A DNA stretch of 64,000 bases from contig NZ_KV917368.1 of NCBI RefSeq assembly GCF_002019605.1, positions 589,809-653,808 on the forward strand. Reading direction: 5' to 3'. The translations under genes and the position numbers were made by a program. Below are positions 31,108-49,665 of the stretch, in pieces; position 1 is the first letter of the stretch, and every line of letters starts with the position of its first letter. The DNA is from Alkalihalobacterium alkalinitrilicum (lineage in GTDB: Bacteria > Bacillota > Bacilli > Bacillales > Bacillaceae_F). The notes beneath the pieces were generated by a model. The model was given only the letters and a program-made list of their open reading frames with translations, did no database searches and was not told the DNA's origin.

Positions 31108-31159
31108 AGTATTTAATTTAAGCTAAGCAAAAATAGGTTAGAATGGTGTTTTTTATTTT

Positions 31160-31175
31160 TGGCACGGTATTTGCA
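31160..31175 (+). promoter_or_regulatory. sigma-54 (-24/-12) promoter of the acyl-CoA dehydrogenase/carboxylase operon
   Basis: TGGCACGGTATTTGCA matches the consensus TGGCAC-N5-TTGCA at every specified base, with GG and GC separated by ten bases. It lies 98 bases before the first gene of the operon. SigL (RpoN) with an activator is required at such promoters; a matching activator gene is encoded at 44785. Confidence 0.9.
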
Positions 31176-31273
31176 AATGTAGAAGTGTAAGGAAAATTCC
31201 TTAATAATTATAGTGAAGTTTATTAACTATTATTTTAAAAATATTCTTTTATGGAAAGTTTGAGGAGGACAAA

Positions 31274-32419
31274 ATGGAATTTACACAAGAAGTAGAAATG
31301 TTGAGAAAAACTGTTGCTAGTTTTGTAAAAAAAGAAATTGAACCAATTGCTGAACAAATTGACAGAACAGATGAGTTTCCACAAGAAATGTGGCGAAAGT
31401 TAGGAGATTTAGGAGTTCTAGGAATAACCATACCTGAAGAGTATGGCGGTGCTAGTATGGGACCAGTCGAACAAGCGGTAGTGACTGAGGAAATAGCCAA
31501 GTATAGTGCGGCAATTGCCGTTTCATATGTTGCTCATTCCAACTTATGTGCACATAACCTCTATCATAATGCGAATGAACAACAAAGACAAAAATATATA
31601 ACAGGGCTTTGTTCTGGTGAGTTAATTGGAGCATTAGGATTAACAGAACCTGGTTCAGGGTCTGATGCAGTCAACATGAAGACCACCGCTAGAAAAGAAG
31701 GAGATCATTATATTCTAAATGGGAGTAAAACCTTTATCACAAATGGTCCAATTGCCGATGTATTATTAGTTTACGCAAAAACAGATCCACAAAAAGGAGC
31801 TCATGGTATTTCTGCTTTTATAGTTGAAAAAGATTCTCCTGGCTTCTCTGTTTCAAAAAAACTAGAAAAAATGGGAAATAGAGGATCTTCTACTGGCGAA
31901 TTGATTTTTGATGAATGTAAAGTTCCAAAGGAGAACTTACTCGGTAATGAAAATGCAGGAGTAAAAATTATGATGTCGGGTCTGGATATCGAGAGAGTAA
32001 TGGTTTCAGCATTATCCCTTGGAATAGGAGAGGGTTCCTTCCGAGAAGCATTGAAATATTCACAAGAAAGAAAACAATTTGGTAAAGAAATAGCCAACTT
32101 TCAATTAATACAAGCAAAGCTAGCAGATATGTATACATTGCTAGAAGCGTCAAGGTTAATGACCTATGATGCAGCGATTGAAGCCGCGACGAACAAAAGA
32201 ATTACTAAAAAGGCAGCAGCTGCAATACTATTCACTGCTGAAACGGCAACAAAAGTTGCATTAGAGGCTGTTCAAATCCATGGAGGTTATGGATATATGT
32301 TAGATTACCCAGTCAATAGATATTTACGTGATGCGAAACTATATGAAATTGGTGCAGGAACATCAGAAGTTAGGAGATTAATTATTGCAAGAGAACTTTT
32401 AAATGTAAAAACTTTCTAA
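31274..32419 (+). CDS. acyl-CoA dehydrogenase, isovaleryl-CoA/citronellyl-CoA type
   Basis: 381-residue FAD enzyme making a 2,3-unsaturated acyl-CoA and passing electrons to ETF. FAD/substrate signatures: [14 protein letters not shown] near residues 116-129 and [21 protein letters not shown] near 335-355. The C-terminal block reads [13 protein letters not shown] instead of the short-chain type with Glu before Gly-Thr. In isovaleryl-CoA dehydrogenase and its relative AtuD the base lies elsewhere, in SGLDLER; here SGLDIER has Glu 240. This points to a 3-methyl-branched substrate. SD GAGGAGG. First gene after the sigma-54 promoter. Confidence 0.92.
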
Positions 32420-32584
32420 TGTATACCATATGTAACGAAAAGGAAAAATTTGTATTTAACTATTAACAATAAATCAAACGAAGCGTTAAGGATGAAAAGG
32501 ATAAAGAACGATATAAAATGACTGAAAAATCGCAATATTTTTAAAAGTAATTCAATTATCTAAATAAATGCCGGAGGTTTATTC

Positions 32585-33925
32585 ATGAACTTTCAAAAAA
32601 TCTTAATCGCTAACAGAGGAGAAATTGCAATTCGAATAATTCGTACATGTAAAAAAATGAGTATTAAAACAGTTGCGATATATTCTGAAGCGGATAAAGA
32701 CATGCCGTATGTATATGAAGCCGATGAAGCTGTTTTGATTGGGCCGCCACAAGTTAGTTTAAGTTATTTGAACTCCAAAGAAATTCTTTCAGTTGCCAAA
32801 AGATTAAAGGTGGATGCGATTCATCCAGGATATGGATTTTTATCTGAAAATGCAGAGTTTAGAAATCTTTGTGAGGAAGAAGGAATTTCATTTATCGGAC
32901 CGACGAGTGATGTTATTACTTCGATGGGAAGCAAAATTGAAGCAAGAAGAAGAATGAGTGAAGCGAGTGTTCCTGTTGTTCCAGGGTGGAATGAACCAAT
33001 TCAATCTATGGAAGAAGCTTTAGAAATTGCACAACAAATTGGATATCCTTTAATGCTAAAGGCAAGTGCTGGCGGTGGCGGGATTGGGATGAGTTTAATT
33101 CATTCCAAAGAACAGTTGGAAAAAGCATTTGAAACGACCCGAAATCGTTCACAAAATTATTTTGGTAACTCAGAAGTATTTTTAGAAAAATACATTAATA
33201 ATCCAAGACATATTGAGGTACAAATTGCTGCAGATCATTATAACAATATCGTTCATTTATATGAACGTGAGTGTTCTGTTCAAAGAAGAAATCAAAAAGT
33301 AATTGAAGAAAGCCCATCTCCTTTCTTAAATGATGCGCAACGGGAACAGCTTATGAGTGCTGCTATAAAAGGGGCAAAAGCAATTGGTTATCGTAATTTA
33401 GGAACGATGGAATTTATCTTTGATGAAGACGGTTCATTTTATTTCTTAGAAATGAACACTCGATTACAGGTAGAGCATCCTGTTACTGAAATGAACACGA
33501 AATTAGATTTAGTGGAATGGCAAATCCGAATCGCTCAGGGAGAGAAGCTGCCTTGTTTACAAAGTGAAATTAATAGTTCAGGGCATTCGATAGAATGTAG
33601 GGTTTATGCAGAAGATCCAGTTAATTTCTATCCTTCTCCAGGAACGATATCGAAGCTGAATTGGCCTAATAATTTAAGAATTGATACATCTATAATAGAA
33701 GGTTCAACAATAACACCATACTATGATCCGATGATAGCCAAAGTAATTGTGCACGCGGAGCAGCGGGAACAATCGATAAAAGACATGGAAAATGGGTTAT
33801 TAACTACAAAAATAGAAGGAATAAAAACAAACATTCCATTATTAATAGATGTTTTGCGTAATGATGAATTTAAAAAAGGTGAATATACAACTAAGTTAAT
33901 AGAAGAAATGAAAGTTAATAGTTAA
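32585..33925 (+). CDS. biotin carboxylase subunit of an acyl-CoA carboxylase
   Basis: 446 residues. ATP-grasp biotin carboxylase: FQKILIANRGEIAIRIIRTCKKM start, DAIHPGYGFLSENAEF, glycine loop KASAGGGGIGMS, RECSVQRRNQKVIEESPSP, and FLEMNTRLQVEHPVTE with catalytic residues. It ends after the biotin carboxylase C-terminal domain, with no BCCP fused, so BCCP is supplied by the next gene. Carboxylates biotin with ATP and bicarbonate. GGAGG precedes the ATG. Confidence 0.93.
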   Translation: MNFQKILIANRGEIAIRIIRTCKKMSIKTVAIYSEADKDMPYVYEADEAVLIGPPQVSLSYLNSKEILSVAKRLKVDAIHPGYGFLSENAEFRNLCEEEGISFIGPTSDVITSMGSKIEARRRMSEASVPVVPGWNEPIQSMEEALEIAQQIGYPLMLKASAGGGGIGMSLIHSKEQLEKAFETTRNRSQNYFGNSEVFLEKYINNPRHIEVQIAADHYNNIVHLYERECSVQRRNQKVIEESPSPFLNDAQREQLMSAAIKGAKAIGYRNLGTMEFIFDEDGSFYFLEMNTRLQVEHPVTEMNTKLDLVEWQIRIAQGEKLPCLQSEINSSGHSIECRVYAEDPVNFYPSPGTISKLNWPNNLRIDTSIIEGSTITPYYDPMIAKVIVHAEQREQSIKDMENGLLTTKIEGIKTNIPLLIDVLRNDEFKKGEYTTKLIEEMKVNS

Positions 33926-33958
33926 AAATAAAATCTTAATTATAAGGAGAGTTCTAAA

Positions 33959-34168
33959 ATGATCGTTAAAGCAAATATGGGTGGGAACTTATGGAAGTTA
34001 CTAGTTTCAAAGGGAGACCAAGTAGAAGCTGGGCAAGAAGTAGCAATCTTAGAATCAATGAAAATGGAGATTCCTATTACATCAAGTTATTCAGGAACAG
34101 TAGTCGATGTGGTAAAAAATGAAGGTGAGTTTGTTCAAGAAGATGAAGGACTAATCGTATTAAAATAG
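33959..34168 (+). CDS. stand-alone biotin carboxyl carrier protein
   Basis: 69 residues forming one biotinyl domain: VKANMGGNLWKLLVSKGDQV, then the biotinylation site ESMKMEIPI with Lys about 36, and VVKNEGEFVQEDEGLIVLK. It carries carboxybiotin between the carboxylase and transferase subunits encoded on either side. AAGGAGAG precedes the ATG. The minimal size, like YngHB-type proteins in Bacillus, is normal. Confidence 0.92.
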   Translation: MIVKANMGGNLWKLLVSKGDQVEAGQEVAILESMKMEIPITSSYSGTVVDVVKNEGEFVQEDEGLIVLK

Positions 34169-34180
34169 GAGGAATGGATA

Positions 34181-35716
34181 ATGACAAATCATGAAAAAGA
34201 AAAAAGTATGTTGGATGTTAGGGAAAGAATTGAAAATGGTGGTGGAGAAAAGTACCGAAACCGTGTGAAATCTCAAAATAAAATGTTAGTTCGTGAACGT
34301 TTAGACCTACTATTTGACGAGGGTTCCCTTAAAGAGGAATGGATCTTTGCTAAATGTCTGGACCCTAGTCTTGCTGCTGATGCAATCATTACAGGTTTAG
34401 GGAAAATTAATGGTCGTAAGGTTGCCTTTTTAGCTGCGGATCCTACCGTTAAAGCAGGTTCATGGGGAGAGAAGTCAGTTGAAAAAATGATAAGAACTCA
34501 AGAACTAGCCATGAAATTAAAAATTCCTATGTTATATATGATTGATTCAGCAGGTGGTCGAATTACAGATCAAATCAAAATTTTCCCAGGATACAGACAC
34601 AGTGGAAAGATTTTTTATAACATGATTAAAATGTCTGGTATGGTTCCGCAAATTTGCATCAATTTCGGACCTTCTCCAGCTGGATCGGCCTATATCCCAT
34701 CATTCGCAGATTTTGTAGTTATGGTTGATAAAAATGCTAGTGCATATTTAGGTTCCACGCGAATGGTTGAAATGGTAATCGGAGAAAAAGTAACCATGGA
34801 GGAAATGGGTGGAGCTAGGTTGCATTGTTCGACTAGTGGTTTAGGAGATGTATTAGCAAAGGATGAGCGAGATGCTATAGAAATCACGAAAAAGTACCTT
34901 TCTTATATGCCACAAAATTACAAGGAAAAGGTTGAAGGTGCCGAACCTGCATTACCTAAAATGGGTCCTTCAATAAAGGAAATCATTCCTAAAGATATGA
35001 ACCGGCCATTTGATATGGTTCATTTAATTGAAAGAGTTGTAGATGAAAATAGTTGGTTTGAAATAAAAGAACTGTTTGCACAAGAGTTAGTTGTTGGCTT
35101 TGGAAGGATGGACGGGAAAACCGTAGGTATTGTTGCCAATCAACCGAAAGTTAAAGGTGGGACATTATTTGTAGATTCCGCGGATAAGGGTGCTAGATTT
35201 GTAACTTTATGTAATGCATTTAATATTCCATTACTATTCTTAGCGGATGTACCTGGTTACATGGTAGGTTCTGCTGTTGAAAAGAAAGGAATTATACGAC
35301 ATGGAGCTAAGATGTTAACTGCTGTTTCTGAAGCAACGGTTCCAAAAATGACAGTAATTGTACGGAAATGTTACGGTGCTGGTTTATATGCAATGTGTGG
35401 TCCAGCTTACGACCCAGAAACCGTTATTGCCCTTCCGTCAGCTTCCATTGCAATTATGGGACCTGAAGCCGCTATTAATGCAGTTTATTATAACAAAATT
35501 CAGGAACTACCAGAAGAAGAACGCCAAGAGTATATCCTTCAGAAAAGGGAGGAATATTCAGAGGATATTAATATTTATGCATTGGGCTCAGAAATGATCA
35601 TTAATGAAATTATTCCATTTGATCAACTAAGAGACGAAGTAATTGAACGGTTTGATTATTATTCTACAAAAGATATAACATTCGGTGAGAAAAAATGTCC
35701 GGTTCATCCGGTATAA
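34181..35716 (+). CDS. carboxyltransferase subunit of acyl-CoA carboxylase
   Basis: 511 residues, two crotonase-fold halves. N-terminal VRERLDLLFDEGSL, oxyanion region IDSAGGRITDQIKIFPGYR and FGPSPAGSAYIPSFADFVVMVD. The C-terminal half has VVGFGRMDGKTVGIVANQP, DVPGYMVGSAVEKKGIIRHGAKM and YGAGLYAMCGPAYDP. These fit the methylcrotonyl-/propionyl-/geranyl-CoA carboxylase beta class. With the IVD-type dehydrogenase upstream, a 3-methyl-2-enoyl-CoA is the likely substrate (3-methylcrotonyl or geranyl type); inference. Confidence 0.92.
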   Translation: MTNHEKEKSMLDVRERIENGGGEKYRNRVKSQNKMLVRERLDLLFDEGSLKEEWIFAKCLDPSLAADAIITGLGKINGRKVAFLAADPTVKAGSWGEKSVEKMIRTQELAMKLKIPMLYMIDSAGGRITDQIKIFPGYRHSGKIFYNMIKMSGMVPQICINFGPSPAGSAYIPSFADFVVMVDKNASAYLGSTRMVEMVIGEKVTMEEMGGARLHCSTSGLGDVLAKDERDAIEITKKYLSYMPQNYKEKVEGAEPALPKMGPSIKEIIPKDMNRPFDMVHLIERVVDENSWFEIKELFAQELVVGFGRMDGKTVGIVANQPKVKGGTLFVDSADKGARFVTLCNAFNIPLLFLADVPGYMVGSAVEKKGIIRHGAKMLTAVSEATVPKMTVIVRKCYGAGLYAMCGPAYDPETVIALPSASIAIMGPEAAINAVYYNKIQELPEEERQEYILQKREEYSEDINIYALGSEMIINEIIPFDQLRDEVIERFDYYSTKDITFGEKKCPVHPV

Positions 35717-35731
35717 AGGAGAGAGTGTGCG

Positions 35732-36535
35732 GTGGAAGTATTTTCAAAGTCCTTATTAAGTGAAAAAGTTGCAATAGTTACTGGTGGTGGTACGGGAATA
35801 GGAAAGGAAATAGCTAAACATCTTGGAACGACTGGGGCAAAGGTAGTCATAACAGGTCGTAGAGAACATGTATTACAAGAAACAGCAGAAGAATTTCGTC
35901 ATTTAGGAATTGAAGTATCTACTATTTCAACAGATATACGCGATCCTGAGCAAGTCAAAAATTTAGTAGAGCATACGGTTGAATGCTTTGGCAGAGTTGA
36001 TATATTAATCAACAATGCAGGCGGGCAATTTCCAAAAAAAGCAGAAGAACTGTCACCAAATGGGTGGAATGCAGTGATTAATAATAATTTAAATGGGACG
36101 TTTTATGTCACTCAAGAAGTTTCTAAACAATTTATGAAACAAGGGACGGGTGGGAGTATCACCAATATATTAGTTAACTTTCTTCATCGTGGGGCTCCTG
36201 GAATTGCCCATTCTGTTGCCGCTCGAAGTGGGATTTATGGAATGATGAAAACGCTCGCATTAGAGTGGGCAAAGCATAATATACGAATTAACTCGATTGG
36301 ACCTGGTTTATTTGTCACCGAGGGAATGAGCGAAGAAATGGCAAGCTTTGCGGGGTCTGATTTTATAAGTAATGTTACGGAGGATGTCCCTTTAAAGCGT
36401 ACAGGGAAATTGGAAGAATTAGGCTGGTTAGTAACCTATATATCTAGTCCAGCCGCAGAATACATTACAGGCGAATATATCATTATCGACGGAGGTAACT
36501 CGCTAGGGAGAGGTATTACTTTTCTTCCATACTAA
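35732..36535 (+). CDS. SDR oxidoreductase, PECR/dienoyl-CoA-reductase-like
   Basis: 267 residues. NAD(P) loop TGGGTGIGKE near residues 18-27, NNAGG near 93-97. The usual YxxxK site is shifted: after the Ser region comes HSVAARSGIYGMMKTLALEWA, where Y and K of YGMMK play the role as in peroxisomal trans-2-enoyl-CoA reductase. GPGLFVTEGM and TGEYIIIDGGNSL complete the fold. Likely acts on an acyl-CoA intermediate. The start codon is probably GTG 35732 (GGAGAG upstream). In the operon. Confidence 0.85.
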   Translation: MEVFSKSLLSEKVAIVTGGGTGIGKEIAKHLGTTGAKVVITGRREHVLQETAEEFRHLGIEVSTISTDIRDPEQVKNLVEHTVECFGRVDILINNAGGQFPKKAEELSPNGWNAVINNNLNGTFYVTQEVSKQFMKQGTGGSITNILVNFLHRGAPGIAHSVAARSGIYGMMKTLALEWAKHNIRINSIGPGLFVTEGMSEEMASFAGSDFISNVTEDVPLKRTGKLEELGWLVTYISSPAAEYITGEYIIIDGGNSLGRGITFLPY

Positions 36536-36561
36536 TAATTAGGTAGTAAAGTGGTGGGAAC

Positions 36562-37458
36562 ATGTGGTCTGAGACATTAATAGAGCAACTTTCTAATCGT
36601 AATAAGAAACCAGTCCGAATTCTGTTTCCTGAAGGTGATGATATACGAGTTCAAAAAGCGTGCCAAGTCATTTTAAATAAAAAGCTAGCACAGCCGATCT
36701 TATTTACCAACTCTAATATCCAAGGAATAGAAACCGTTTGGGAAACAGGTTGGGAAACTGGGAATAAGAAACTAGAAATAGCAGCAGAGTGGTTGAAAGA
36801 AGGTAGAGTAGATGGTGTGATTTCTGGAGCATGCTATGAGAGTGGCGAAGTGATCCGTGTAGGTCTGAAGAAAATAGGTTTAAAGAATGGTAGAAAACGA
36901 ATTACAGGGATATTTGTTGTAGATACAGGGTTACGAACTGTGGGCAACGATGGTGTCTTATTATTTACAGATCCCATCGTTATCCCACAGCCAACAACTG
37001 AGGATCTGATGGAAATAATTAAAGGGGCGACAGAGCTATGGGAATTAATATTTTCAGACGTTGATCCCAAAGTAGCCTTACTTGATTTTATGACTTGTAA
37101 TGGTCACTTTGAAAAGGTTAATAAACAATCTGTAATGGATTTAAAGAAAACTTTTCCAGGAATCCATTTTGATGGACCATTGCAAGTGGATGCAGCCATT
37201 GTTCCTGAAGTGGCGTTAACCAAAGCCCCAAAAAGTGATATTGCGGGGAGAGCTAATATATTAATATTCCCTGATCTTAAATCAGGAAATATAGGATATA
37301 AACTTGTTGAGAGGTTAGGTGGGGCCAAAGCTTTTTCCTATTTAACAGGTTTTGAAAAGAGTTGGAATGATTTATCGAGAGGTTGTCGCTGGGAAGATGT
37401 TGTCGTATCGTCATGTCTTTCAATATTAGAAATTAATAGTAAGAAAACATCATTGTAA
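36562..37458 (+). CDS. phosphate acyltransferase (Pta/Ptb family)
   Basis: 298 residues. PVRILFPEGDDIRVQKACQVIL is the N-terminal phosphotransacylase signature; VDGVISGACYESGEVIR, FDGPLQVDAAIVPEVA, and ANILIFPDLKSGNIGYKLVERLGGAKA are conserved through phosphate acetyl- and butyryltransferases. It converts an acyl-CoA and phosphate to acyl phosphate and CoA. No acid kinase gene is nearby. In the operon it may recover energy from the pathway product. GTGGTGGG precedes the ATG. Confidence 0.88.
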   Translation: MWSETLIEQLSNRNKKPVRILFPEGDDIRVQKACQVILNKKLAQPILFTNSNIQGIETVWETGWETGNKKLEIAAEWLKEGRVDGVISGACYESGEVIRVGLKKIGLKNGRKRITGIFVVDTGLRTVGNDGVLLFTDPIVIPQPTTEDLMEIIKGATELWELIFSDVDPKVALLDFMTCNGHFEKVNKQSVMDLKKTFPGIHFDGPLQVDAAIVPEVALTKAPKSDIAGRANILIFPDLKSGNIGYKLVERLGGAKAFSYLTGFEKSWNDLSRGCRWEDVVVSSCLSILEINSKKTSL

Positions 37459-37483
37459 GATGTGAAAGGATTAAAGGAGGAAA

Positions 37484-37864
37484 ATGTCTATGAGAGTGTT
37501 GTTAAAGGATATCGCACAGTCAAGATCTGGAGACAAGGGCAATACTGCAGATATATCATTATTTGCAAATAATGAAGAGTTATTTAATGTAATAAAAAAA
37601 GAAGTAACATCCGAAAGAGTAAAAGAACACTTTAATGGAATATGTCTTGGAAAGGTAGAACGCTTTGAAGTAGCAAATGTTCTAGCATTGAAATTTATCC
37701 TTCACGAAGCATTAGGTGGAGGTGGTCCACGTTCTTTAAGAATAGATAATTTAGGAAAATCTTTAAGTGCAGCTTTATTGAGAATGGAAATTGAAGTACC
37801 AAATGAAATAATGAAAAACGTGGAAATTAAGCAACCCCCGAAACAATTTAAATCATTCGTATAA
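37484..37864 (+). CDS. AtuA-like C-terminal ferredoxin-fold protein
   Basis: 126 residues. Opening VLLKDIAQSRSGDKGNTADISLFA and middle VLALKFILHEALGGGGPRSLRIDNLGKSLSAALLRMEI match the small C-terminal domain of acyclic-terpene-utilisation AtuA proteins. In Pseudomonas AtuA this domain is fused to the large DUF1446 domain; here the large part is the separate gene at 38736, with the hydratase gene between. SD AAAGGAGG; the start may be at 37484 or the second ATG at 37490. Role in terpenoid-acid catabolism is not biochemically known. Confidence 0.85.
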   Translation: MSMRVLLKDIAQSRSGDKGNTADISLFANNEELFNVIKKEVTSERVKEHFNGICLGKVERFEVANVLALKFILHEALGGGGPRSLRIDNLGKSLSAALLRMEIEVPNEIMKNVEIKQPPKQFKSFV

Positions 37865-37931
37865 ATTTTAAATAATGCAATTTGATTAGTAAATCTGTGA
37901 AGAAATAAATTTATAGGAAGAGGTTGTTCAA

Positions 37932-38714
37932 ATGGAAAATATTGTTCGCTATGAAGTAGAAGATCATGTAGCGATTATTACGATGAATTTACCCGATCGG
38001 AGAAATCCTCTATCAGTAGATATGTGCTGGGCTTTGATTGAGCAAATTAAACAAGCGGAAGTTGATGATGATGTTCATGTCGTACTGTTAACTGGAGAGG
38101 GACAGTCGTTTTGTGCAGGGGGGGACCTTAAAGAGTTTAAGAAATACCAAGATAAAGGTGCTAGTAAAGTACACAAAGAAGGCGAAAGTACAACAGAATT
38201 ATTTAAAACGTTATCCAACCTAAAAAAACCAATCATTGGTGCAATAAATGGTCATGCATTAGGAGGAGGCTTCGGCCTTGTAGCTTCTTGCCATTATTCG
38301 ATAGCATCTTCTGAAGCAAAGTTTGGAACAACAGAAATTAAGTTAGGGCTATTCCCGTTAGTTATTTTACCAGCCGTCATGGATGCAGTTGGTCCAAAGA
38401 AAGCATTGGAATTGGGATTTACTGGTGAAATCTTTTCAGCATCTAAAGCAGTTGACCTTGGTTTGGTAAATAAAGTAGTTCCACCAAATGAAGTAGTTGA
38501 CGAGGCCAAACAATTTGCTAAGCAATTAGCAGAAGCCAGTCCATTAGCATTGAGAATTGGTTTAGATTGTTATGTAAAGACGAGAGATATGGAGTGGAAT
38601 AAAAAACTAGATTATGCCAATACATTAAGAGTTATCTCATTTTTAAGTGATGATGTGAAAGAAGGGGCAGATGCCTTTTTAGAAAAACGAAAGCCACAAT
38701 GGACTGGACAGTAG
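37932..38714 (+). CDS. enoyl-CoA hydratase/isomerase
   Basis: 260 residues of the crotonase fold. Oxyanion loops GQSFCAGGDLKEF (about 60-72) and GHALGGGFGLVASC (about 107-120). The first catalytic Glu is in FGTTEIKLGLFP (about 137), but the usual PGAGG after it is replaced by LVILPAV. Within the operon it is the obvious hydratase for the carboxylated enoyl-CoA (role of AtuE or LiuC). AGAGG lies ten bases before the ATG. Confidence 0.9.
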   Translation: MENIVRYEVEDHVAIITMNLPDRRNPLSVDMCWALIEQIKQAEVDDDVHVVLLTGEGQSFCAGGDLKEFKKYQDKGASKVHKEGESTTELFKTLSNLKKPIIGAINGHALGGGFGLVASCHYSIASSEAKFGTTEIKLGLFPLVILPAVMDAVGPKKALELGFTGEIFSASKAVDLGLVNKVVPPNEVVDEAKQFAKQLAEASPLALRIGLDCYVKTRDMEWNKKLDYANTLRVISFLSDDVKEGADAFLEKRKPQWTGQ

Positions 38715-38735
38715 AATAAAAGATATAAAGGTGGA

Positions 38736-40118
38736 GTGATAGATATGGGTAAAACTGTAAGAATTGGTGCAGGTATGGGCTTTTATGGAGATACGATTTT
38801 ACCAGCCCTTGAAATCGCAAAAAAGGGCAATGTGCAATATATTTGCTTTGATGATTTGGCAGAATTGACGATGGCAATTCTGGAAAAAGATAGGAAGAGA
38901 GACCCTAATTTAGGATATACCAAAGATATTACGAAAACAATGAGGACTCTTTTACCTGAATGTTACAAACGTGGAATCAAATTGATAACAAATGCGGGTG
39001 GGATCAATCCACATGGTGCAGCAAAAGAAGTAAAAAAAATCGCAGAAGAACTTGGTTTTCACGGGATAAAAATTGGTGTTGTCACTGGAGATAATATATA
39101 TGACAAAATTGACGAATTAGAAAACCAAGGAGTAGCTTTTACTTCCATGGATGGCAGTGAAACGATCCATGATTTTCGTGAAAAGATTTTATTTTCGTCG
39201 GTGTATTTAGGTGCACAACCTATTGTTGAAGCATTAGATCAAGGAGCCGATATTGTAATAACGGGAAGGACTACAGATTCTGCACAGTTTGCTGCACCTT
39301 TGATCTATGAGTTTGGTTGGTCACCAACGGACTGGGATAAAATTGCTTCAGGTGTACTAATAGGTCATCTATTCGAATGCTCGGGTCAGGCAACAGGTGG
39401 GAATTTTAGTGGTCCTTGGTGGGATATTGATAACCTTGAGACTATAGGGTATCCGATCGGTGAAGTATCTGAAGATGGTTCCTTTATTGTTTCCAAAGTT
39501 GAAGGTTCTGGCGGTGAAGTATCCATTGATACCTTAAAAGAACAATTTCTCTATGAAGTCCACGACCCAACACACTATATAACACCAGATGTTATTGTTG
39601 ACTTTACAACCGCTAAATTTGAGGAACTAGGACCAAATCAAGTACGGATTTCAAATGTGAAAGGAAAAGCCGCTCCTAATACACTTAAAGTATTATTTGG
39701 ATATGAAAATGGATGGTCTGGTGAGGGTATGATGGGCTATTCTTGGCCACACGCACTTGAAAAGGCTAGAAAAGCAGAGGACATTATTAGAAAACAATTG
39801 GACATACAGCAGGTTGAATATGAAGAAATTCATGCAAGTTTTTTAGGGTATAATTCCTTACACGGGCCTCTAGTGAAAGAATTAGAATCTGATGATTATA
39901 GCGAAATTTATTTACGTGTTGCTATTCGTACACAAACAAAACAAGAAGCTGCGAAACTTGGTCGACTATTACCACCACTTGCCGTAAACGGTCCTGCTTT
40001 TGGTGGTGGAGGTCTAGGTGGGATGCAACGACCTCGGCAGTTACTAGGATTGTTTTCAAGTTTAATAGAACGAGATTTGATTGAAAGGAATGTCAATATT
40101 GAATTAATTGAAGTTTAA
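38736..40118 (+). CDS. AtuA-family (DUF1446) large protein
   Basis: 460 residues. TVRIGAGMGFYGDTILPALEIAKKGNVQYICFDDLAELTM opening, then ITNAGGINPHGAAKEVKK, IVITGRTTDSAQFAAPLIYEFGW, ATGGNFSGPWWD and GKAAPNTLKVLFGYENGWSGEG are characteristic DUF1446 blocks. AtuA is essential for citronellol/geraniol growth in Pseudomonas but its reaction is unknown. The C-terminal ferredoxin-like part is encoded separately upstream. The start is TTG/ATG around 38736 or MGKTVRIG at 38745; a GGTGGAG site fits the latter. Last gene of the first catabolic transcript. Confidence 0.9.
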   Translation: MIDMGKTVRIGAGMGFYGDTILPALEIAKKGNVQYICFDDLAELTMAILEKDRKRDPNLGYTKDITKTMRTLLPECYKRGIKLITNAGGINPHGAAKEVKKIAEELGFHGIKIGVVTGDNIYDKIDELENQGVAFTSMDGSETIHDFREKILFSSVYLGAQPIVEALDQGADIVITGRTTDSAQFAAPLIYEFGWSPTDWDKIASGVLIGHLFECSGQATGGNFSGPWWDIDNLETIGYPIGEVSEDGSFIVSKVEGSGGEVSIDTLKEQFLYEVHDPTHYITPDVIVDFTTAKFEELGPNQVRISNVKGKAAPNTLKVLFGYENGWSGEGMMGYSWPHALEKARKAEDIIRKQLDIQQVEYEEIHASFLGYNSLHGPLVKELESDDYSEIYLRVAIRTQTKQEAAKLGRLLPPLAVNGPAFGGGGLGGMQRPRQLLGLFSSLIERDLIERNVNIELIEV

Positions 40119-42027: not shown

Positions 42028-42198
42028 GCGCTTACAAATCCCTATAAACATTTAACTATATCATAAGGGAGGTGGGCTGATGGTCAAGCTGGAGTAAAAA
42101 TAAAATGAGAGATCATTTTATAAGCTGCTTTTGAAAATGGGGAAGACACAATCGGTTTGAAAAAACTTAATATTAAAGTTATTAATGGGAGGATAAAC

Positions 42199-43386
42199 AT
42201 GAAAATAAATTTTCGTCTATTTGTAGGCGCTTCCTTGTTGATGAGTGTATTATTTTTCCTTGCAGCGTGCGGGGGGAGTAGCTCATCGAGTTCAACTACA
42301 AAAACCGACTCTGATAACAATTCTGAAAGCGAAGTGAGCGAAGTAAGCAATGAAACTGAAATAGAGGAAACACATTTTAGAGCTACTATGGGACTTCCTT
42401 CAACACATCTTTGGTATGCTAGTTTTGCTGAACCTGTGATGCAAGAAATAGAAGCAATAACAGATAATGTAGTTACATTTGATTCATTTGTTGCAGGAGA
42501 GTTAATTCCTCTTGGAACAGAGTATGATGCGCTCCGTCAAGGCTCAATAGAAATTGCTTTCTCCTTAGCACTACCATATGACCCTGCTAGGTTCCCTTAT
42601 ACTGAAGTATCATTGCTTCCATTACTTGAATCGGATCCAGAAATTATCGCAATTGCGGCAAAAAACATGATGGAAAGTGATAGAATAATTGCGGATGGAA
42701 AAACCTACTATGAACTGGAGTTTGAAGATAACGGGATAATTGGATTTGTAAATCCTCCAACACCACCATATGTCATTGCAACTAGGGAAAATTCCTTGAA
42801 TTCAATTGAAGAATTTTCCGAAATGCTTAAGATGCGGAGCCCAAGTCGTGTCCATGATATTTTATCTCGAGAATTATCAGTCACAGCGTTGCAAATGACT
42901 AGTTCAGATGCTTATGACGCATTAAGTCGAGGTGCTTTAGATGGTGTGTATCTTAGTATAGCCGACTGGGACTCAATTGGACTAACAGAACTCTTTAATT
43001 ATGGCATTGATGGAGTTAATTTTGGACATTTCGTAGGACATACTGCAATGACGATAGAAAAATGGGAAAGTCTCCCTAAAGAACTTCAGCATATCTTCAC
43101 AACAACTCTTGAAGACACCCTATTTACAGGTGTTAAAGATTGGGATGACGGTACAAATAGAGCTTTAGAAAATTTTAAAGGGAATGGTGGAGAGCTAATT
43201 AACTTCGAAGAATTAGATCCAGCAGTCCAAGATCATATTACGAATGCGATGGTACAAACTTGGTATACATGGATTGATAATTTAGAAGATGCAGGTCATG
43301 CAGGTAAAGAAATAGCCATGCTTTGGCGGGATATGGTAGTTGAAGCGGGTGGAAAAGTACCTGAAGAAATTATGGACTTACAATAA
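42199..43386 (+). CDS. TRAP-type (DctP-like) substrate-binding lipoprotein, first copy
   Basis: About 395 residues. Signal MKINFRLFVGASLLMSVLFF with lipobox LAACGG, then a Ser-rich linker. Body of the DctP family: GELIPLGTEYDALRQGSIEIAFSLALPYDP, RFPYTEVSLLPLLES and LKMRSPSRVHDIL, where a conserved Arg normally clamps a carboxylate. ATG 42199 with GGGAGGA before it; the earlier in-frame start has no site. No DctQ or DctM membrane genes occur in the window, so it is an orphan. It lies 171 bases after an acyl-CoA synthetase. A 16-bp terminator follows. Confidence 0.85.
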   Translation: MKINFRLFVGASLLMSVLFFLAACGGSSSSSSTTKTDSDNNSESEVSEVSNETEIEETHFRATMGLPSTHLWYASFAEPVMQEIEAITDNVVTFDSFVAGELIPLGTEYDALRQGSIEIAFSLALPYDPARFPYTEVSLLPLLESDPEIIAIAAKNMMESDRIIADGKTYYELEFEDNGIIGFVNPPTPPYVIATRENSLNSIEEFSEMLKMRSPSRVHDILSRELSVTALQMTSSDAYDALSRGALDGVYLSIADWDSIGLTELFNYGIDGVNFGHFVGHTAMTIEKWESLPKELQHIFTTTLEDTLFTGVKDWDDGTNRALENFKGNGGELINFEELDPAVQDHITNAMVQTWYTWIDNLEDAGHAGKEIAMLWRDMVVEAGGKVPEEIMDLQ

Positions 43387-43423
43387 AAATAAATTTCAAT
43401 CTATCTTTATGAAATTCATAACG

Positions 43424-43466
43424 AAACATATTAGGAGCTATACTACTAGCTCCTAATATGTTTGTA
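43424..43466 (+). terminator. rho-independent terminator
   Basis: AAACATATTAGGAGCT pairs perfectly with AGCTCCTAATATGTTT (43424-43439 with 43448-43463), eight-base loop. Ends the synthetase/binding-protein transcript. Confidence 0.85.
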
Positions 43467-43530
43467 TACAGGGATAGTCTAAGACATTTTAAATCTCGTA
43501 TCTAAGATACAAGTGAGAAAGGGGAAGCAA

Positions 43531-44316
43531 ATGAGTAATGAATTAATGTATGAAAAAAAGACGGATAAAGCCATAATTACGATTAACCGTCCAGAGGTTT
43601 ATAATTGTATTTCTCCAGCTGGATGGAAGGAATTGGGGGATATGTTCCAAATAGCAGAAAATGATAAGGATGTACGAGTTGTCATTATAACAGGTGCAGG
43701 TGATAAGGCTTTTTGTTCAGGAGCTGACTTAAAGAAAACCATTCCTTTATTATTAGGAAACCAACGTAATGACGAATTAGAAGGAAATATAAATCACGCA
43801 ATGATGAAATTTAATCCTATCTCGAAGCCTATTATTGCAGCTATAAACGGAGTTTGTTTAGCAGGTGGAACGGAATTATTACTCGCTACTGATATTCGAT
43901 TAGCAAGTGATCATGCTGTATTTGGTCTACCAGAACCTAATTGGTCAATTATGGCAGCTGGAGGGTCATTAGCTAGATTAATACGGCAAATACCCTATTG
44001 CCTAGCAATGGAGGTTTTAATTACGGGAAGAAAGTTAACCGCTTTAGAAGCCGAAAGTATGGGATTAATTAATAAGGTTGTCCCGAGAGAAGAATTAATG
44101 ACGGAAGTAGAGAAATATGCAAATCTAATCATAAGTAACGGACCAATTGCTGTTCAGGCAACGAAGAGTGCAGTAATTGAGTTACAAAATGTTCCACTGA
44201 ATGAAGCGTATGAGAAAGAATGGGAATTTTCAGCACTGGCATTTAGAAGTGATGATGCATTGGAGGGGATTAATGCATTTAAAGAAAAAAGGAAACCAAA
44301 ATTTCAAGGGTTATAG
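43531..44316 (+). CDS. enoyl-CoA hydratase/isomerase, second copy
   Basis: 261 residues from ATG 43531 (GAAAGGGGAAGC upstream; a GTG 18 bases earlier is less likely). Crotonase loops GDKAFCSGADLKKT (about 59-72) and GVCLAGGTELLLATDIRLA (about 108-126). FGLPEPNWSIMAAGGSLARLIRQ holds one of the two Glu positions; the second is replaced by Ser/Ile. Different from the other hydratase in this cluster (under a third identical by eye), so likely a separate step. Followed by a repeat element. Confidence 0.88.
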   Translation: MSNELMYEKKTDKAIITINRPEVYNCISPAGWKELGDMFQIAENDKDVRVVIITGAGDKAFCSGADLKKTIPLLLGNQRNDELEGNINHAMMKFNPISKPIIAAINGVCLAGGTELLLATDIRLASDHAVFGLPEPNWSIMAAGGSLARLIRQIPYCLAMEVLITGRKLTALEAESMGLINKVVPREELMTEVEKYANLIISNGPIAVQATKSAVIELQNVPLNEAYEKEWEFSALAFRSDDALEGINAFKEKRKPKFQGL

Positions 44317-44784
44317 CTAAAAACCTATTTTTGTTTATCCCGCATCAACTGGCAGTAATACCCCCATTTCAAGACTTCGAGGAATTAAAGAGGGATAAGT
44401 GGGGGATAAACTGTCAGTAAAGACTATAAATGAACATAGACTAAATGCGCGACGTCCTGTGGCAACGTCTGTGTGATCCACATCGTGTGGGCCTCAACTA
44501 ACCATCAGCGGGGGAAGAGGAAAACCCCCTTACTGATGGAAGTTTCACTTTATTCGTTAGTAAGGATTTAAATCATAAATATATCCGTTTGTAACGGGCG
44601 TAATTCAAATTAATAGATACAAGATTTTGTGTTCGGTATAGTAAACAGTAATCTTGCCCGTTACTTGGATAAATGTAAGAACTACTATTTTTAATAGTTA
44701 GCGGTGTGTTATAATAAATATTGAATTTTAAAAATTTTCAGTAATTTTAACTATTTAAGTAAGAAAGGAGGAATTTACTTAACA
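44317..44784. other. spacer with large dispersed-repeat copy and EBP promoter
   Basis: 470 bases. Bases 44334-44575 are a structured repeat (listed separately). Near 44710 TATAAT within GTGTTATAATAAAT may be the -10 box of the enhancer-binding-protein gene. No small gene seen. Confidence 0.5.
44334..44575 (+). repeat. structured dispersed repeat, IS200/IS605 right-end or guide-RNA-like
   Basis: Begins TTTATCCCGCATCAACTGGC followed by AGTAATACCCCCA, matching 53038-53070 with one difference. Internal stems: ACCCCCATTT with AAGTGGGGGA; ACCATCAG and CTGATGG; GACGT and ACGTC around 44453-44470; CCACATCGTGTGG. Ends with ACTGATGGAAGTTTCACTT (44532-44550), identical to 21691-21709. No tnpA or tnpB frame is present. 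Confidence 0.6.
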
Positions 44785-46965
44785 ATGCAAATTCGCGATT
44801 ATTGTACTCAAGATATGATTAAATTGTATCCTGAAAGTAAAATCTCCCAAGTTCTTGAAGCGTTTTTAAAGCATCGAATTGATATAGCCTGCATTATAGA
44901 TCAATCAGGTATGTTATACGGAATATTAAGTAAAAGTACTATTTTTCAAGCGTTACTCAATGGTGCTAATATCGAATCAACAGTTGAATCTTATATTATT
45001 AAAAACGTTGTTACCTTTAAAGACAGTGATGGTTTTGAATTTGTACGAACAGAAATGATAAAACAAAATGTTGCACATGGTGTTATTCTGGATGAAAAAG
45101 GCTATTTATTTGGAGTCATTAGTAAATCAGATATAATTAGAGGTTTTTTACACGAAACAACACTATTAGTCAAACAACAAAGTGACTTGATTGAGAACTT
45201 ACAAAATGGTGTTATTGCAGTTGACGCTAATGGTATAATTTTAAATTTTAATAGAGTTAGTGAGAGGTTATTTGGTATAAAAAAGTCTAAGGTGATGGGG
45301 AAATGTATAGAAAAAACGTTCCCCGAAGTATCAGAACAATTAAAATCTACATTAAGGACTTCTACAATAAAAGAACTCGAAAATATTCAAATAAATCAGA
45401 ATTCAATTATTGCAAACTTTATCCCGATTACGCATAGAAATAAAGTCAATGGAGCGATGGCTGTACTACAGGACATTACTCAATTAGAAAATATTGCGAA
45501 AGAATTAGAAACTACTAAAAATCTCCAACACACGATTCATCATGCATTAACTTTATCTTATGATGCTGTTGCTATCACAGATGAGAAGGGTTTAATAGTT
45601 GATGCTAATAATACATTTTTAGATCTATTTGATATTCCTGAGGAAGATTTGTTATTTCAACATTGGTCTAAAAGTGTTCCTGAATTACACTTAAACATAG
45701 ATAGAGAGGAATTTAGAAATCCAGACGGTCAAGGTGAAATCATTGTAATTAATAATAAGACCTGTTTTATTATAAAGGAGTATATATGTCGTTCAGGGAA
45801 ATTCCTTGGTGTAATTGTAAAGATTATATATCGTCAGCTCGAACAATGGAAAGAGATGTTTCAAAGAATTGAAGAATTAGAAAGTGAACTATATTATTAT
45901 AAAGATAAATTGCATAAATCCACCCAAAGCTCTACTGCGTTTGATCAAATTATTAGTGCAAATAAACAAGTTGAAATCATAAAAAAACAAGCGCTACTTT
46001 CTTCAAAAAGTACATCAACGGTACTAATTACTGGGGAAAGTGGTACGGGTAAGGAACTCTTTGCTGAAGCGATTCATAAAGAATCTGGAAGACCAGGAAA
46101 CTTTGTTAAAGTCAATTGTGCAGCCATTCCAAGTGAATTGTTAGAGTCTGAATTTTTCGGATATGCAGAAGGTGCTTTTACAGGTGCAAAAAAAGGTGGA
46201 AAGAAAGGAAGGTTTGAACTAGCCAATGAAGGTACTCTTTTTCTTGATGAGATAGGGGACATGCCGTTATCATTACAGGCTAAATTATTACGTGTTTTAC
46301 AAGAACAAACATTCGAACCAGTTGGTGGGACAAAATCAAAAAATGTTAATGTCCGGATCATAACCGCAACGAATAAAGATTTAAAGCGAATGGTTAAGGA
46401 TGGAGAGTTTCGTGAAGATTTATATTATCGTATTGATGTTGTACATTTAGAGTTACCTTCTCTTAAAGATAGAACAAATGACTTGCCATTATTATGTGAT
46501 CATTTAATAAAAAAACTAAATAAAAAATTAAATAAAAATATTATAGGTATTACACCCAGCACTTTATCATTACTCCAAGCATATGACTGGCCAGGAAATA
46601 TTAGACAATTAGAGAATGTGTTAGAACGTGCCATGAATATGGGAATTACGAGTTGGATTGAAACTCATCATTTGCCAGATGAAATACAACAACATAAGGC
46701 TGACTTTGAAGTAGAGAACAGAGTTGAAATTGTTAATGATAAAGAAGAGATAGAAATTCAATTTAATAGTAAGAGGATTGAAAATAATAGTCTATCTTTG
46801 GAAGAAGTAGAAAAAAGGATGATTATCGATACCCTTAGAGAAACTGAAAATAATCGGTCTGAAGCTGCAAAAGTTTTAGGAATTAGTCGGTCGGGTTTGT
46901 ATAAAAAAATCCAGAAATATAAAATTAATCATGAAATACACCTTTACTACAGTGTAGAAAAGTAG
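44785..46965 (+). CDS. sigma-54-dependent enhancer-binding protein (CBS-PAS-PAS-AAA+-Fis)
   Basis: 726 residues. CBS pair about 8-130, PAS 1 about 135-230 ([22 protein letters not shown]), PAS 2 about 245-350, AAA+ core 390-625: Walker A GESGTGKE at 417-424, GAFTGA at 463-468 (contacts sigma-54), Walker B LFLDEIGD about 485-492. C-terminal Fis helix-turn-helix about 690-715 ([19 protein letters not shown]). CBS domains usually sense adenine nucleotides and PAS a small ligand. Likely activator of the three sigma-54 promoters in this window. AGGAGG lies 13 bases before the ATG, longer than normal. Confidence 0.94.
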
Positions 46966-47517
46966 ATGACATGGTTAAATATCCCAACAAAATGAAGCCT
47001 AATGTTCCAAGGATCTAATAACTCAAAATAATTCACTTAGCTTTTGGGATTATAACAATAAATACATTTTTGTAAATGAATTTACTAGTCTTATTCTCCT
47101 TATTAGAATAACAATAATGCATAATGGAGTTTGTTTTTCCTTACTTAGAACAAATATGGTCATCATGTAACATACAAACATAATAAATATGAATTTGAAT
47201 TCATCTATGAGTTTATGTTCATGTAAAGGCCGGATCATTGTATACAAAAAACACAACTGTCTTTTATTTTGGGTAAAAAGTGGACACTCATAATTAATGT
47301 GTAGATGATTATTATGAAATGAAGAAGTATTTACGCATATCAAAGGGTAAGAGAGATGTTTTTTAGGTTATTTACGCTTAAATTCAGCAATTTATCCTTA
47401 ATTGTAGTCTCATCATTTTTACACAGTGATTCTCCAAATTGGTACGAAAATTGCAAAAGGTAGTGGGAGAGAGCAATTGAATTATAAGTAGATTGTAATG
47501 AGAGGAGAATGATGTAA
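46966..47517. other. spacer holding sigma-54 promoter of second synthetase
   Basis: 550 bases without a credible gene; two minus-strand frames there have no binding site and odd composition. Around 47272-47292 GTAAAAAGTGGACACT resembles the terminal repeat of the IS3 element at 6.2-7.6 kb and could be a scar or, together with ACTGTCT at 47258, part of an activator site. The promoter at 47440-47455 is listed separately. Confidence 0.45.
47440..47455 (+). promoter_or_regulatory. sigma-54 promoter upstream of second acyl-CoA synthetase
   Basis: TGGTACGAAAATTGCA keeps the GG-N10-GC core and differs from consensus at one position of the -24 box. It lies 62 bases before ATG 47518. Supports joint control with the operon at 31274. 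Confidence 0.82.
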
Positions 47518-49098
47518 ATGAATGTTGAAAACAACCTTATTCATCGAGTGAATGTGGGGGATATTTTAAAAAGGAGTATGGAAAGGTATCCCAATAAAAC
47601 AGCAATAGTAGAAGGGGATCAAAGGTATTCATATACCGAATTTAATGCAATGGTTAACAAAGCAGCTAATGTTTTACTATCACTTGGGTTAGGTAGAGGG
47701 GATAAAATTGCATTACTCTCGAGTAATTCAATTGAATTTTTGCAAATTTATTTTGCTTGCGCTAAAGCTGGCGTGACTATTGTACCGATAAATCTTGCCT
47801 TGGTGACTCAAGAAATAAATTATATTTTAAACGATTCTAAAGCGAAATTAATTATTGCAGAAGATACTTATTTAGATAAACTCCCTGAACATTCATTAAT
47901 ACCCTCATTAAAGTATACTATTGTTATTCAAAATAAAGAAACAGAGGCAATAAATAATAATTTATATATCTGGAATTCCCTTTGGGAAAACGAAAGCGAT
48001 CAAGAGGTCCAAGTAGAAGTGGATGATCGGGATTTAATGCAATGTCTATATACAAGTGGAACGACCTCCAACCCAAAAGGAGTAATGAGTAGCCATGTGG
48101 CCGTTTACCTTCAAACATTAGGAACTGCTTTCGATTTAAAATTTACCGAAAATGATATCTCAGTAGCTATGATGCCACTCTATCATACCGCACAATTGAA
48201 TGCGCTTACAACTCCAGTGATTATTGCTGGGGGCACTACAATAATAATGAAAGCTTTTGAACCTAAGGAACTACTTCGTTTAATAGATAAGGAACGTGTT
48301 ACACAAATTTTTGGATTACCTATGATGTACCGTTCTCTTATGGACCACCCTGACTTATCAAAGACTGACTTATCATCTTTAAGATTAAGTGTCTATGCTA
48401 TGACACCGATGCCGAATAATGAATTAAAACGAGCGATTGAAACTTTTGGTTGTGATTTTACACTTCTTTTTGGACAAACAGAAATGGCACCTGTTACAAC
48501 GGTCTTTCGTCCAGAGCACCAATTAACTAAAACGGGAGCAGTTGGAACTGCTGGGGTAAATGTCGATGTTAGTATTATGGATGATGACGGCAATATCTTA
48601 CCAAATGGCGAAATTGGAGAGATTGTCTATCGAAGTCCACAGACGATGGAGGGCTACCTAAATGATAAAGATAAAACAAAAGATGCTTTCAAATCCGGTT
48701 GGTTTCATAGTGGGGACTATGGTTATTTAGACGAAGATAAGATCTTATGGTTTGTTGATAGGAAGAAAGATATAGTGAAATCGGGTGGAGTCAATGTTTC
48801 TTCGATTGAGGTAGAAAAAGTGTTGCTGCAAAATGAAGGAGTTGAAAATGCAGTTGTTGTGGGATTACCCCATAGGTACTGGATTGAGGCATTAACTGCC
48901 TTCATTATTCCGAAACAAGGTGTAGAAATTGATGAAGCTATGATCATTAAATATTGTAAAACTAACCTAGGAAAGTTTAAAGTGCCGAAAAAAGTAGTAG
49001 TAGTAGACGAATTTCCATTAACATCAACTGGAAAGATACAAAAACATATCATAAGGGAAAAATATAAGTCTTTATTTGAAGGTGTTGAAAGTAAATAA
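47518..49098 (+). CDS. acyl-CoA synthetase (AMP-forming), second copy
   Basis: 526 residues. P-loop LYTSGTTSNPKGVMSSH about 175-191, MPLYHTAQLN, GQTEMAPVTTV, GYLNDKDKTKDAFKSGWFHSGDYGYLDEDKI, DRKKDIVKSGGVNVSS and LTSTGKIQKHIIRE with the catalytic Lys. Only moderately similar to the first synthetase, so probably a different acid chain or stereochemistry. GAGAGGAG precedes the ATG. Own sigma-54 promoter; terminator after it. Confidence 0.93.
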   Translation: MNVENNLIHRVNVGDILKRSMERYPNKTAIVEGDQRYSYTEFNAMVNKAANVLLSLGLGRGDKIALLSSNSIEFLQIYFACAKAGVTIVPINLALVTQEINYILNDSKAKLIIAEDTYLDKLPEHSLIPSLKYTIVIQNKETEAINNNLYIWNSLWENESDQEVQVEVDDRDLMQCLYTSGTTSNPKGVMSSHVAVYLQTLGTAFDLKFTENDISVAMMPLYHTAQLNALTTPVIIAGGTTIIMKAFEPKELLRLIDKERVTQIFGLPMMYRSLMDHPDLSKTDLSSLRLSVYAMTPMPNNELKRAIETFGCDFTLLFGQTEMAPVTTVFRPEHQLTKTGAVGTAGVNVDVSIMDDDGNILPNGEIGEIVYRSPQTMEGYLNDKDKTKDAFKSGWFHSGDYGYLDEDKILWFVDRKKDIVKSGGVNVSSIEVEKVLLQNEGVENAVVVGLPHRYWIEALTAFIIPKQGVEIDEAMIIKYCKTNLGKFKVPKKVVVVDEFPLTSTGKIQKHIIREKYKSLFEGVESK

Positions 49099-49117
49099 AT
49101 AGGATGCTTCTTGTAAG

Positions 49118-49149
49118 AATCGTTGCTATATGCCAACGATTTTTTTTTC
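49118..49149 (+). terminator. rho-independent terminator
   Basis: AATCGTTG pairs with CAACGATT across eight bases (49118-49125 with 49134-49141), followed by a T run. Ends the second synthetase transcript. Confidence 0.88.
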
Positions 49150-49665
49150 GGTTAATTACCTAAACCGTAAGAGTAATATTCCTTACTGTCAAAATCTAGT
49201 CGTTTCCAAATGGAGAATTCAGATGGGTTAAAACTAAGAACCATAAATTCTTTAACTTGTCAAAAAAGGAAACAAGTGACCATTAATGAATAAACACTCG
49301 TATACTTTTTATTCGTTTTCACTAGAATAATAAGAAAATCAATTGTTAATAAAATGGCATGAAACTTGCAATGAAAAAGTGAAAGTTCATTTATTAATGG
49401 ATGATGATTATGCAAAGATTACCTTTTCTGGTCTATAGCAATAAAATAAATCAGTAAGTCTATCCTTTAGTAGGGTAATCGATTAGTTGAGAATGACTTA
49501 AGTTTATTTTTTTTAGGGTTACAATATTTAGCGTTTCAAAAAATGAAGTAATCTAAGAAAGGGAGGTGTATAAAAGTAGAGTAATATAAATAAATTGAGA
49601 AACTGGCTGTATAGGTATTTATGAAAAATGTTTTGTGAAAAATTAAATAACATTGGGGGAAAAAT
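49150..49665. other. promoter and long leader of second binding-protein gene
   Basis: About 500 bases without a gene. ACTTGTC and AAACAAGTGA near 49257-49279 form a loose inverted repeat upstream of the sigma-54 promoter at 49355. The promoter would give an unusually long leader of about 285 bases; nothing recognisable as a riboswitch is seen in it. Confidence 0.5.
49355..49370 (+). promoter_or_regulatory. sigma-54 promoter upstream of second TRAP-type binding protein
   Basis: TGGCATGAAACTTGCA retains GG-N10-GC and TTGCA, one change in the -24 box. It is about 296 bases before the ATG at 49666. Confidence 0.8.

Follow-up and report, generated by a model that had tools for sequence, protein, structure and literature searches.

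The window analysed here is a 64-kb stretch (64,000 nucleotides) of Alkalihalobacterium alkalinitrilicum, C1:589809-653808 of the 5.52-Mb genome, with a G+C content of 36%. It harbors an 18-kb cluster, here termed the island, of acyl-CoA enzyme genes together with the gene of a sigma-54 activator and three -24/-12 promoter motifs. All genes assigned between 31160 and 50835 reside on the plus strand. In window coordinates, the features are as follows:

30992-31094, unstranded: three exact ACANNTGT enhancer-like palindromes (upstream activating sequences, UAS) at 30992, 31052 and 31087, upstream of the operon promoter
31087-31113, unstranded: UAS pair with a TGT-N11-ACA core and 19-bp spacing, second member degenerate
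31160-31175, plus strand: -24/-12 sigma-54 promoter of the operon, TGGCACGGTATTTGCA, exact TGGCAY-N5-TTGCW, matrix score 26.4
31274-32419, plus strand: acyl-CoA dehydrogenase (ACAD) of the isovaleryl-CoA dehydrogenase type, Glu in a DIER motif, Ala replacing Glu in GAGT
32585-33925, plus strand: biotin carboxylase (BC) subunit of acyl-CoA carboxylase
33959-34168, plus strand: biotin carboxyl carrier protein (BCCP), 69 aa, 69% identical to the counterpart open reading frame (ORF) of the leucine operon L284; family name given by inspection
34181-35716, plus strand: carboxyltransferase (CT, beta) subunit of acyl-CoA carboxylase
35732-36535, plus strand: short-chain dehydrogenase/reductase (SDR)
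36562-37458, plus strand: phosphate acetyl/butyryltransferase-family protein
37484-37864, plus strand: AtuA ferredoxin-like small protein (PF23544)
37932-38714, plus strand: enoyl-CoA hydratase
38736-40118, plus strand: AtuA-family protein (PF07287, 483 bits), proposed lyase
40381-42027, plus strand: acyl-CoA synthetase 1
42157-43386, plus strand: TRAP-type (tripartite ATP-independent periplasmic) binding lipoprotein 1 (DctP)
43425-43462, plus strand: 16-bp perfect hairpin without a T run (z -8.1), between lipoprotein 1 and hydratase 2
43513-44316, plus strand: enoyl-CoA hydratase 2
44785-46965, plus strand: sigma-54 activator, CBS-CBS-PAS-PAS-AAA+-Fis, with GAFTGA
47234-47260, unstranded: UAS pair, TGT-N11-ACA, with an exact ACAACTGT at 47253
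47440-47455, plus strand: -24/-12 sigma-54 promoter of acyl-CoA synthetase 2, TGGTACGAAAATTGCA, one mismatch, matrix score 16.4
47518-49098, plus strand: acyl-CoA synthetase 2
49253-49279, unstranded: degenerate UAS pair with a TGT-N11-ACA core
49355-49370, plus strand: -24/-12 sigma-54 promoter of binding lipoprotein 2, TGGCATGAAACTTGCA, exact TGGCAY-N5-TTGCW, matrix score 25.8
49666-50835, plus strand: TRAP-type binding lipoprotein 2 (DctP), 48% identical to lipoprotein 1

The activator possesses two CBS domains, two PAS domains, a Sigma54_activat domain with its lid (PF00158, 230 bits) and a Fis-type HTH_8 domain (62.7 bits), and thereby qualifies as a sigma-54 enhancer-binding protein. Among 13 aligned family members GAFTG is invariant, GAFTGA being present in 12 and GAFTGS in the remaining one (L221). 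The top-scoring named family is NF041552 (PrdR), a sigma-54 activator of proline reductase genes that likewise contains a CBS domain and whose targets differ from those of the island; as the score of 516.3 bits falls below the curated cut-off of 795, an assignment as PrdR was rejected. The genome encodes a single rpoN and 27 matches to the activator domain, 20 of them full length (15 with exact GAFTGA, 6 with CBS domains).

All three promoter motifs keep the GG-N10-GC spacing and lie in intergenic gaps on the strand of the gene downstream. A 28-column matrix derived from 33 further sites of the genome places 31160, 49355 and 47440, in this order, ahead of every other position in the window; the next, at 12.8, falls inside an ORF. 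Since the best scores of 20 shuffled windows reached 23.8 once and 16.2 once (others were lower), the site at 47440 taken alone is borderline and weak evidence. The first-pass annotation of this DNA, made from the letters only, had described the three elements, their absence elsewhere in the window and the CBS-PAS-PAS-AAA+-Fis activator with GAFTGA, and had linked them; these points stand, with a second CBS domain and one mismatch to TGGCAY-N5-TTGCW at 47440 to be added, and the linkage gains support from the enhancer motif and phylogeny described below. It had also asked whether the motif is as dense at random: across the genome there are 48 exact sites, as compared with 7 hits of the reversed control pattern, and the sigma-54 sites of this genome are non-random.

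Only two of these 48 sites belong to the island. A mechanical ORF call places 13 of the 48 within larger ORFs and leaves the other 35 free of them, counting three that fall in ORFs of 60-69 aa; the 13 were excluded from the matrix and from the control promoter set, although two of them, 115890 and 817059, may be promoters given a wrong gene start and were restored for a survey of first genes. In that survey (33 further sites, 30 scanned, three short ORFs left out) the first gene encoded an acyl-CoA enzyme in 13 of 30 cases, namely five ligases, three hydratases, two thiolases, two dehydrogenases and one phosphotransacylase, and a DctP protein in two. The island is thus one unit of a large sigma-54 regulon.

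Upstream of promoters linked to the activator family described below, the palindrome ACANNTGT emerged as a putative enhancer. In a first set outside the window it is present at 14 of 14 promoters, with 22 copies against a shuffle mean of 1.49, a count that is not an independent test because the motif was first spotted by eye in a print-out that included the window promoters. A second set, of promoters unused in the first, gave 12 copies at seven of seven promoters where 0.52 were expected, four with exact 20-bp steps; this set includes the -24/-12 elements of L231, L258 and L261, read by eye and one or two bases off consensus, and excludes L232. Among spaced trinucleotide pairs, only ACA-N2-TGT and TGT-N12-ACA reach all 14 first-set promoters, which amounts to a 20-bp pitch, and exact palindromes 20 bp apart are found in L220 and L221. 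Within the whole window ACANNTGT occurs 17 times, no excess over chance; four copies nevertheless fall within the 660 bp that precede the three sites, three before 31160 and one before 47440, where 0.18 would be expected (Poisson p about 3e-5). The spacing TGT-N11-ACA occurs 12 times in the window and once at each of the three promoters, which random triples match at a rate of 0.00015, a figure to be discounted because N11 was chosen after viewing the data, with nine spacings listed. Searched as a full 12-letter pair with up to three mismatches, the enhancer shows no excess in the window compared with shuffles (N11, 42 against 38.6; N12, 33 against 38.3), so that the TGT-N11-ACA core alone is conspicuous.

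The activator has relatives in the same setting. With its CBS-PAS-PAS half as query and five candidates scored per genome, close relatives (E <= 1e-50) turned up in 7 of the 397 genomes searched in the order, its own included; a scan of contigs with the activator matched relatives chiefly in the AAA+ region. All seven relatives outside the window (L217-L223) adjoin an operon that encodes AtuA, AtuA-ferredoxin, a hydratase, a carboxyltransferase, ACADs and ligases, and in each case the divergent gap holds a -24/-12 site. With AtuA as query, 28 of 398 genomes of the class gave matches at E <= 1e-100, and loci from 22 of these, our genome included, were examined (six were left out). Eight further AtuA loci carry an activator on the stretch (L231-L233, L235, L236, L257, L258 and L261), so that activator relatives stand beside AtuA-type operons at 15 other loci, 14 of which have a -24/-12 element. 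In L232 the enhancer pair is present and a -24/-12 element was looked for and not found; the elements of L233 and L236 start with TGGTAT, and that of L257 precedes a ligase rather than AtuA. Four more loci (L234, L260, L262 and L264) combine a sigma-54 site and the ACANNTGT motif with no activator picked up on the stretch. The ORF filter used can miss real genes in G+C-rich stretches: the AtuA of L260 went unlisted, though found by search.

Phylogenetically, the window activator falls inside a clade (100/99) with 15 AtuA-linked activators, nearest to those of L261, L258 and L257, and apart from the 18 other activators of its genome that the tree included. It therefore belongs to an AtuA-linked CBS/PAS activator family, which we define here by this clade, the ACANNTGT enhancers and the adjoining AtuA operon, and the island is one case of a wider regulatory family. 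The same genome even holds a paralogous AtuA island (L217, C1:1795000-1814999), which has a CBS/PAS activator of its own and two sigma-54 sites and is accompanied by genes for DctP, DctM and DctQ; the sigma-54 promoters at genome positions 1777685 (ligase) and 1794714 (DctP), which share the enhancer motif, may belong to its regulon. In view of this second island, the 20 activators and the 48 exact sites, the first-pass picture of one self-contained island is not supported, and the idea that the sites are confined to it was rejected. Its presumed rarity in Firmicutes is not supported either, as the module turns up again in other genomes of the order and the class.

AtuA per se does not bring sigma-54 control with it. 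This idea was rejected since nine AtuA loci (L224-L230, L259 and L263) have neither activator nor a sigma-54 site within 400 bp, and ACANNTGT occurs at one of the nine, as one copy against 0.83 expected. The AtuA proteins of these nine loci form one group (100/98) and are encoded with the small partner, without adjoining acyl-CoA genes of the island type as judged by the ORF filter, which suggests that AtuA is put to a different use there. In the AtuA tree, the window protein is a long branch beside this sigma-54-free clade (95/93); set against the place of the activator in its own tree, enzyme and activator descent are not one simple story. In the sigma-54 modules AtuA and its partner are the steady core, and the ACADs and CT vary. 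Among plasmid records, 160 contain AtuA matches, all below 60% identity and with no Bacillus among the ten matches listed; the best plasmid match of the biotin carboxylase is from Bacillus velezensis, at 56%.

Taken together, we favor, with a probability of roughly 0.6, a sigma-54-controlled catabolic island for a beta-branched carboxylic acid, either isovalerate-like or longer and isoprenoid-like. The activator would use its CBS and PAS domains to sense a small molecule, bind enhancers of the ACANNTGT type that precede the three -24/-12 promoters by some 70-200 bp, and open the sigma-54 polymerase by means of its GAFTGA AAA+ motor. The predicted output is the operon from 31274 to about 43386, for which the hairpin at 43425-43462 is a possible end, as well as acyl-CoA synthetase 2 and a binding lipoprotein of the TRAP type. 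The acid would be converted to its CoA ester, oxidized by the isovaleryl-CoA-dehydrogenase-type enzyme, carboxylated and hydrated; its final cleavage would most likely fall to AtuA and the small partner instead of an HMG-CoA (3-hydroxy-3-methylglutaryl-CoA) lyase.

The gene content fits catabolism of a beta-branched acid, and every enzyme class of the acyclic-terpene (Atu) pathway of Pseudomonas has a candidate in the operon. The degradative half of the first-pass proposal therefore fits, by way of the ACAD, the acyl-CoA carboxylase (whose 69-aa biotin carrier had gone unnamed), the hydratases, AtuA, AtuA-ferredoxin and two ligases; its uptake half is incomplete, as no credible DctQ or DctM was found in the window to go with the lipoproteins, and its isoprenoid-like acid is a plausible candidate substrate. 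The ACAD finds its best PDB matches among isovaleryl-CoA dehydrogenases. Isovaleryl-CoA dehydrogenase and long-chain acyl-CoA dehydrogenase share the helix-G base position, and the window ACAD as well as six ACADs of L217, L222 and L236 have Glu at this position (ER) and none in the GT motif; the comparison covered the window, L284 and these three loci, the two ACADs of L257 (27% identical to that of the window) being left out.

For AtuA, a profile of 19 proteins retrieved one notable solved relative, and a remote one: PDB 9erq, titled citramalate lyase subunit A (E 4e-6, over positions 142-366 of the 455 in the profile). If AtuA cleaves a tertiary hydroxy acid, its reaction would be of the kind that citramalate lyase carries out. 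No related structure came up for the small partner at E <= 1, and the single-sequence fold of AtuA (mean predicted local distance difference test score, pLDDT, 38.5) was too poor for a structure search. AtuA with its partner may replace HMG-CoA lyase in the island. A bolder and more doubtful proposal, which we put forward tentatively, has two parts taken together: that AtuA with a separate ferredoxin-like partner forms a second class of C-C lyase replacing HMG-CoA lyase for 3-hydroxy-3-alkyl-glutaryl-CoA esters, and that in Bacilli this isoprenoid-acid pathway would be controlled not by a TetR-type repressor but by a CBS/PAS family of sigma-54 activators devoted to it, acting through ACANNTGT enhancers of their own with a 20-bp pitch.

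A number of observations weigh against the favored island. No close orthologue of the whole of it was found in the order and class genomes searched, and the nearest AtuA proteins (61%) come from loci without activator or sigma-54 site. The CT subunit scores higher with propionyl- (1vrg_A, 364 bits) and methylcrotonyl-CoA carboxylase (3u9r_B, 300) than with geranyl-CoA carboxylase (5ikl_B, 233), so the beta subunit does not score as the geranyl-CoA type of the Atu pathway, and the acid may be isovalerate-like or longer. As to the lyase step, the available part of PMC4097962 assigns it to LiuE, although that of PMC4847356 names AtuA. Exact enhancers precede two of the three window promoters and are missing before 49355, and the window pairs are spaced by 19 bp and partly degenerate, whereas relatives have the 20-bp pitch. 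In 25 shuffles the best AT-rich dyad reached 13 of 14 promoters, which makes the first rank in dyad counts not striking alone, ACA-N2-TGT itself reaching 0-4 promoters in the same shuffles. Furthermore, 31 other sigma-54 promoters of the genome contain nine copies of ACANNTGT at five promoters, against 2.65 expected and a shuffle maximum of 7; the motif is thus not wholly specific, with two of the five (1777685 and 1794714) situated within 31 kb of the paralogous activator. The motif of that activator is nearly identical, and it could act at the window promoters too. Finally, tblastn with two DctQ and three DctM queries gave no credible match in the window (only one, E 0.97).

Some of these points feed other explanations. 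Rather unlikely in our view is a duplicated leucine/isovalerate pathway, in which a short branched acid would be degraded with a lyase borrowed from the leucine operon at 2.91 Mb (L284, of the Bacillus yng type) and AtuA would have another role. That operon shares ACAD, BC, BCCP, CT, hydratase and ligase with the island, with identities to the window proteins of 55% for BC, 69% for BCCP and 60% for CT, and it encodes HMG-CoA lyase (482 bits, cut-off 246), for which no counterpart occurs among the annotated island ORFs; the isovaleryl-CoA dehydrogenase matches of the ACAD point the same way. However, L284 is already complete, its ACAD is of a different active-site type (GEGT), and the site pattern detected no sigma-54 site before it in the examined stretch, where one TGGTAC-type match lies inside the ACAD gene on the opposite strand; the island, by contrast, has AtuA, activator and sigma-54 sites, and it is AtuA with its partner that stays constant in the sigma-54 modules. 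It is improbable that the window promoters answer mainly to a different activator, for instance the paralogue at 1.807 Mb: the genome has 20 activators and ACANNTGT also precedes the paralogue's own two promoters, but linkage of activator and operon is family-wide, and the three window promoters have TGT-N11-ACA as opposed to the N12 dyad in 14 of 14 relatives.

We give a similarly small chance to a carboxylate-uptake module whose TRAP-type lipoproteins define the substrate, for example an oxidized or dicarboxylic branched acid. Two binding lipoproteins, one under its own sigma-54 promoter, would suit it, as would the sigma-54 sites before two other DctP genes of the genome and the DctP, DctM and DctQ adjoining the paralogous island; against it, the window provides DctP with no membrane subunits found, and the acyl-CoA gene set fits a monocarboxylic acid. 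Membrane subunits encoded at another place may serve, or their genes may have disappeared close to the IS91-type transposase at 51085, after lipoprotein 2. Hardly credible is the view that the motifs are chance matches in AT-rich gaps and the genes are under sigma-A. The 67 sigma-70-like matches in 31000-50990, no excess over shuffles (mean 75.8), neither demonstrate sigma-A promoters nor rule them out; matrix ranks, genome-wide enrichment and conservation in relatives all argue for the sigma-54-controlled island instead.

Three further observations were made along the way. The genome yields 35 DctP and 35 DctM matches (33 over cut-off, some fragments), and a TRAP complement of that size is unusually large for a Bacillus relative. 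Between the second hydratase and the activator, at 44334-44553, lies a dispersed 220-bp repeat with sharp edges and at least 42 genome matches, counting itself and one fragment (40 of 225 candidates scored); it contains the Rfam Bacillaceae-1 RNA (RF01690, 69 bits) flanked by two hairpins, and of ten copies compared all end with CACTTTAT and eight begin with TTTATCCC, so that it looks like a mobile or RNA-bearing element. Lastly, a thiamine pyrophosphate (TPP) riboswitch is located at 9466-9577 on the minus strand (62.7 bits).

Among known systems, one of the closest to the island is the Pseudomonas acyclic terpene utilization cluster. Pseudomonas AtuA is a fusion with a ferredoxin-like part; in the island the two are separate genes, as are BC and BCCP. 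The carboxylase beta subunit differs as described, and a phosphate acetyltransferase-like protein and TRAP lipoproteins come in addition. As far as the available parts of PMC4847356 and PMC4097962 describe it, the Pseudomonas atuABCDEFGH/AtuR system likewise comprises AtuA, acyl-CoA carboxylase, acyl-CoA dehydrogenase, hydratase, acyl-CoA synthetase and SDR, and is governed by the repressor AtuR in place of an activator with sigma-54. The sigma-54 regulons of B. thuringiensis and Clostridiales, as seen in the accessible portions of PMC4428206 and PMC6615313, similarly involve one-component activators beside catabolic operons. Those portions count eight activators in Bacillus thuringiensis, with no mention of acyl-CoA, CBS or AtuA (PMC4428206), and list CBS domains among Clostridiales activators, with no mention of AtuA or acyl-CoA (PMC6615313). 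Acyl-CoA dehydrogenase, hydratase and thiolase COGs appear among sigma-54 targets in Bacilli and Clostridia in the accessible portion of PMC12316311, so that the general link between sigma-54 and acyl-CoA metabolism is already published; AtuA does not appear in its main text, as far as available. Our literature searches returned no paper combining acyclic terpene utilization with sigma54 and none linking AtuA with citramalate lyase, recent citramalate lyase papers (since 2022) not being on AtuA by title or abstract start. Papers on acyclic terpene utilization in Firmicutes were, by title, not on sigma-54; the matches listed for sigma 54 and Bacillus included none on AtuA, and none were found on activators together with acyl-CoA. 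What is new here is the occurrence of activator relatives beside AtuA operons at 15 other loci with a shared ACANNTGT enhancer palindrome.

The analysis thus connects an activator family with its enhancer sequence and with a catabolic operon in a series of related genomes. In the organism studied, sigma-54 widely serves acyl-CoA catabolism, as judged by the 30 first genes scanned. The ligand of the activator, its target promoters and the disputed reaction of AtuA thereby become directly testable.

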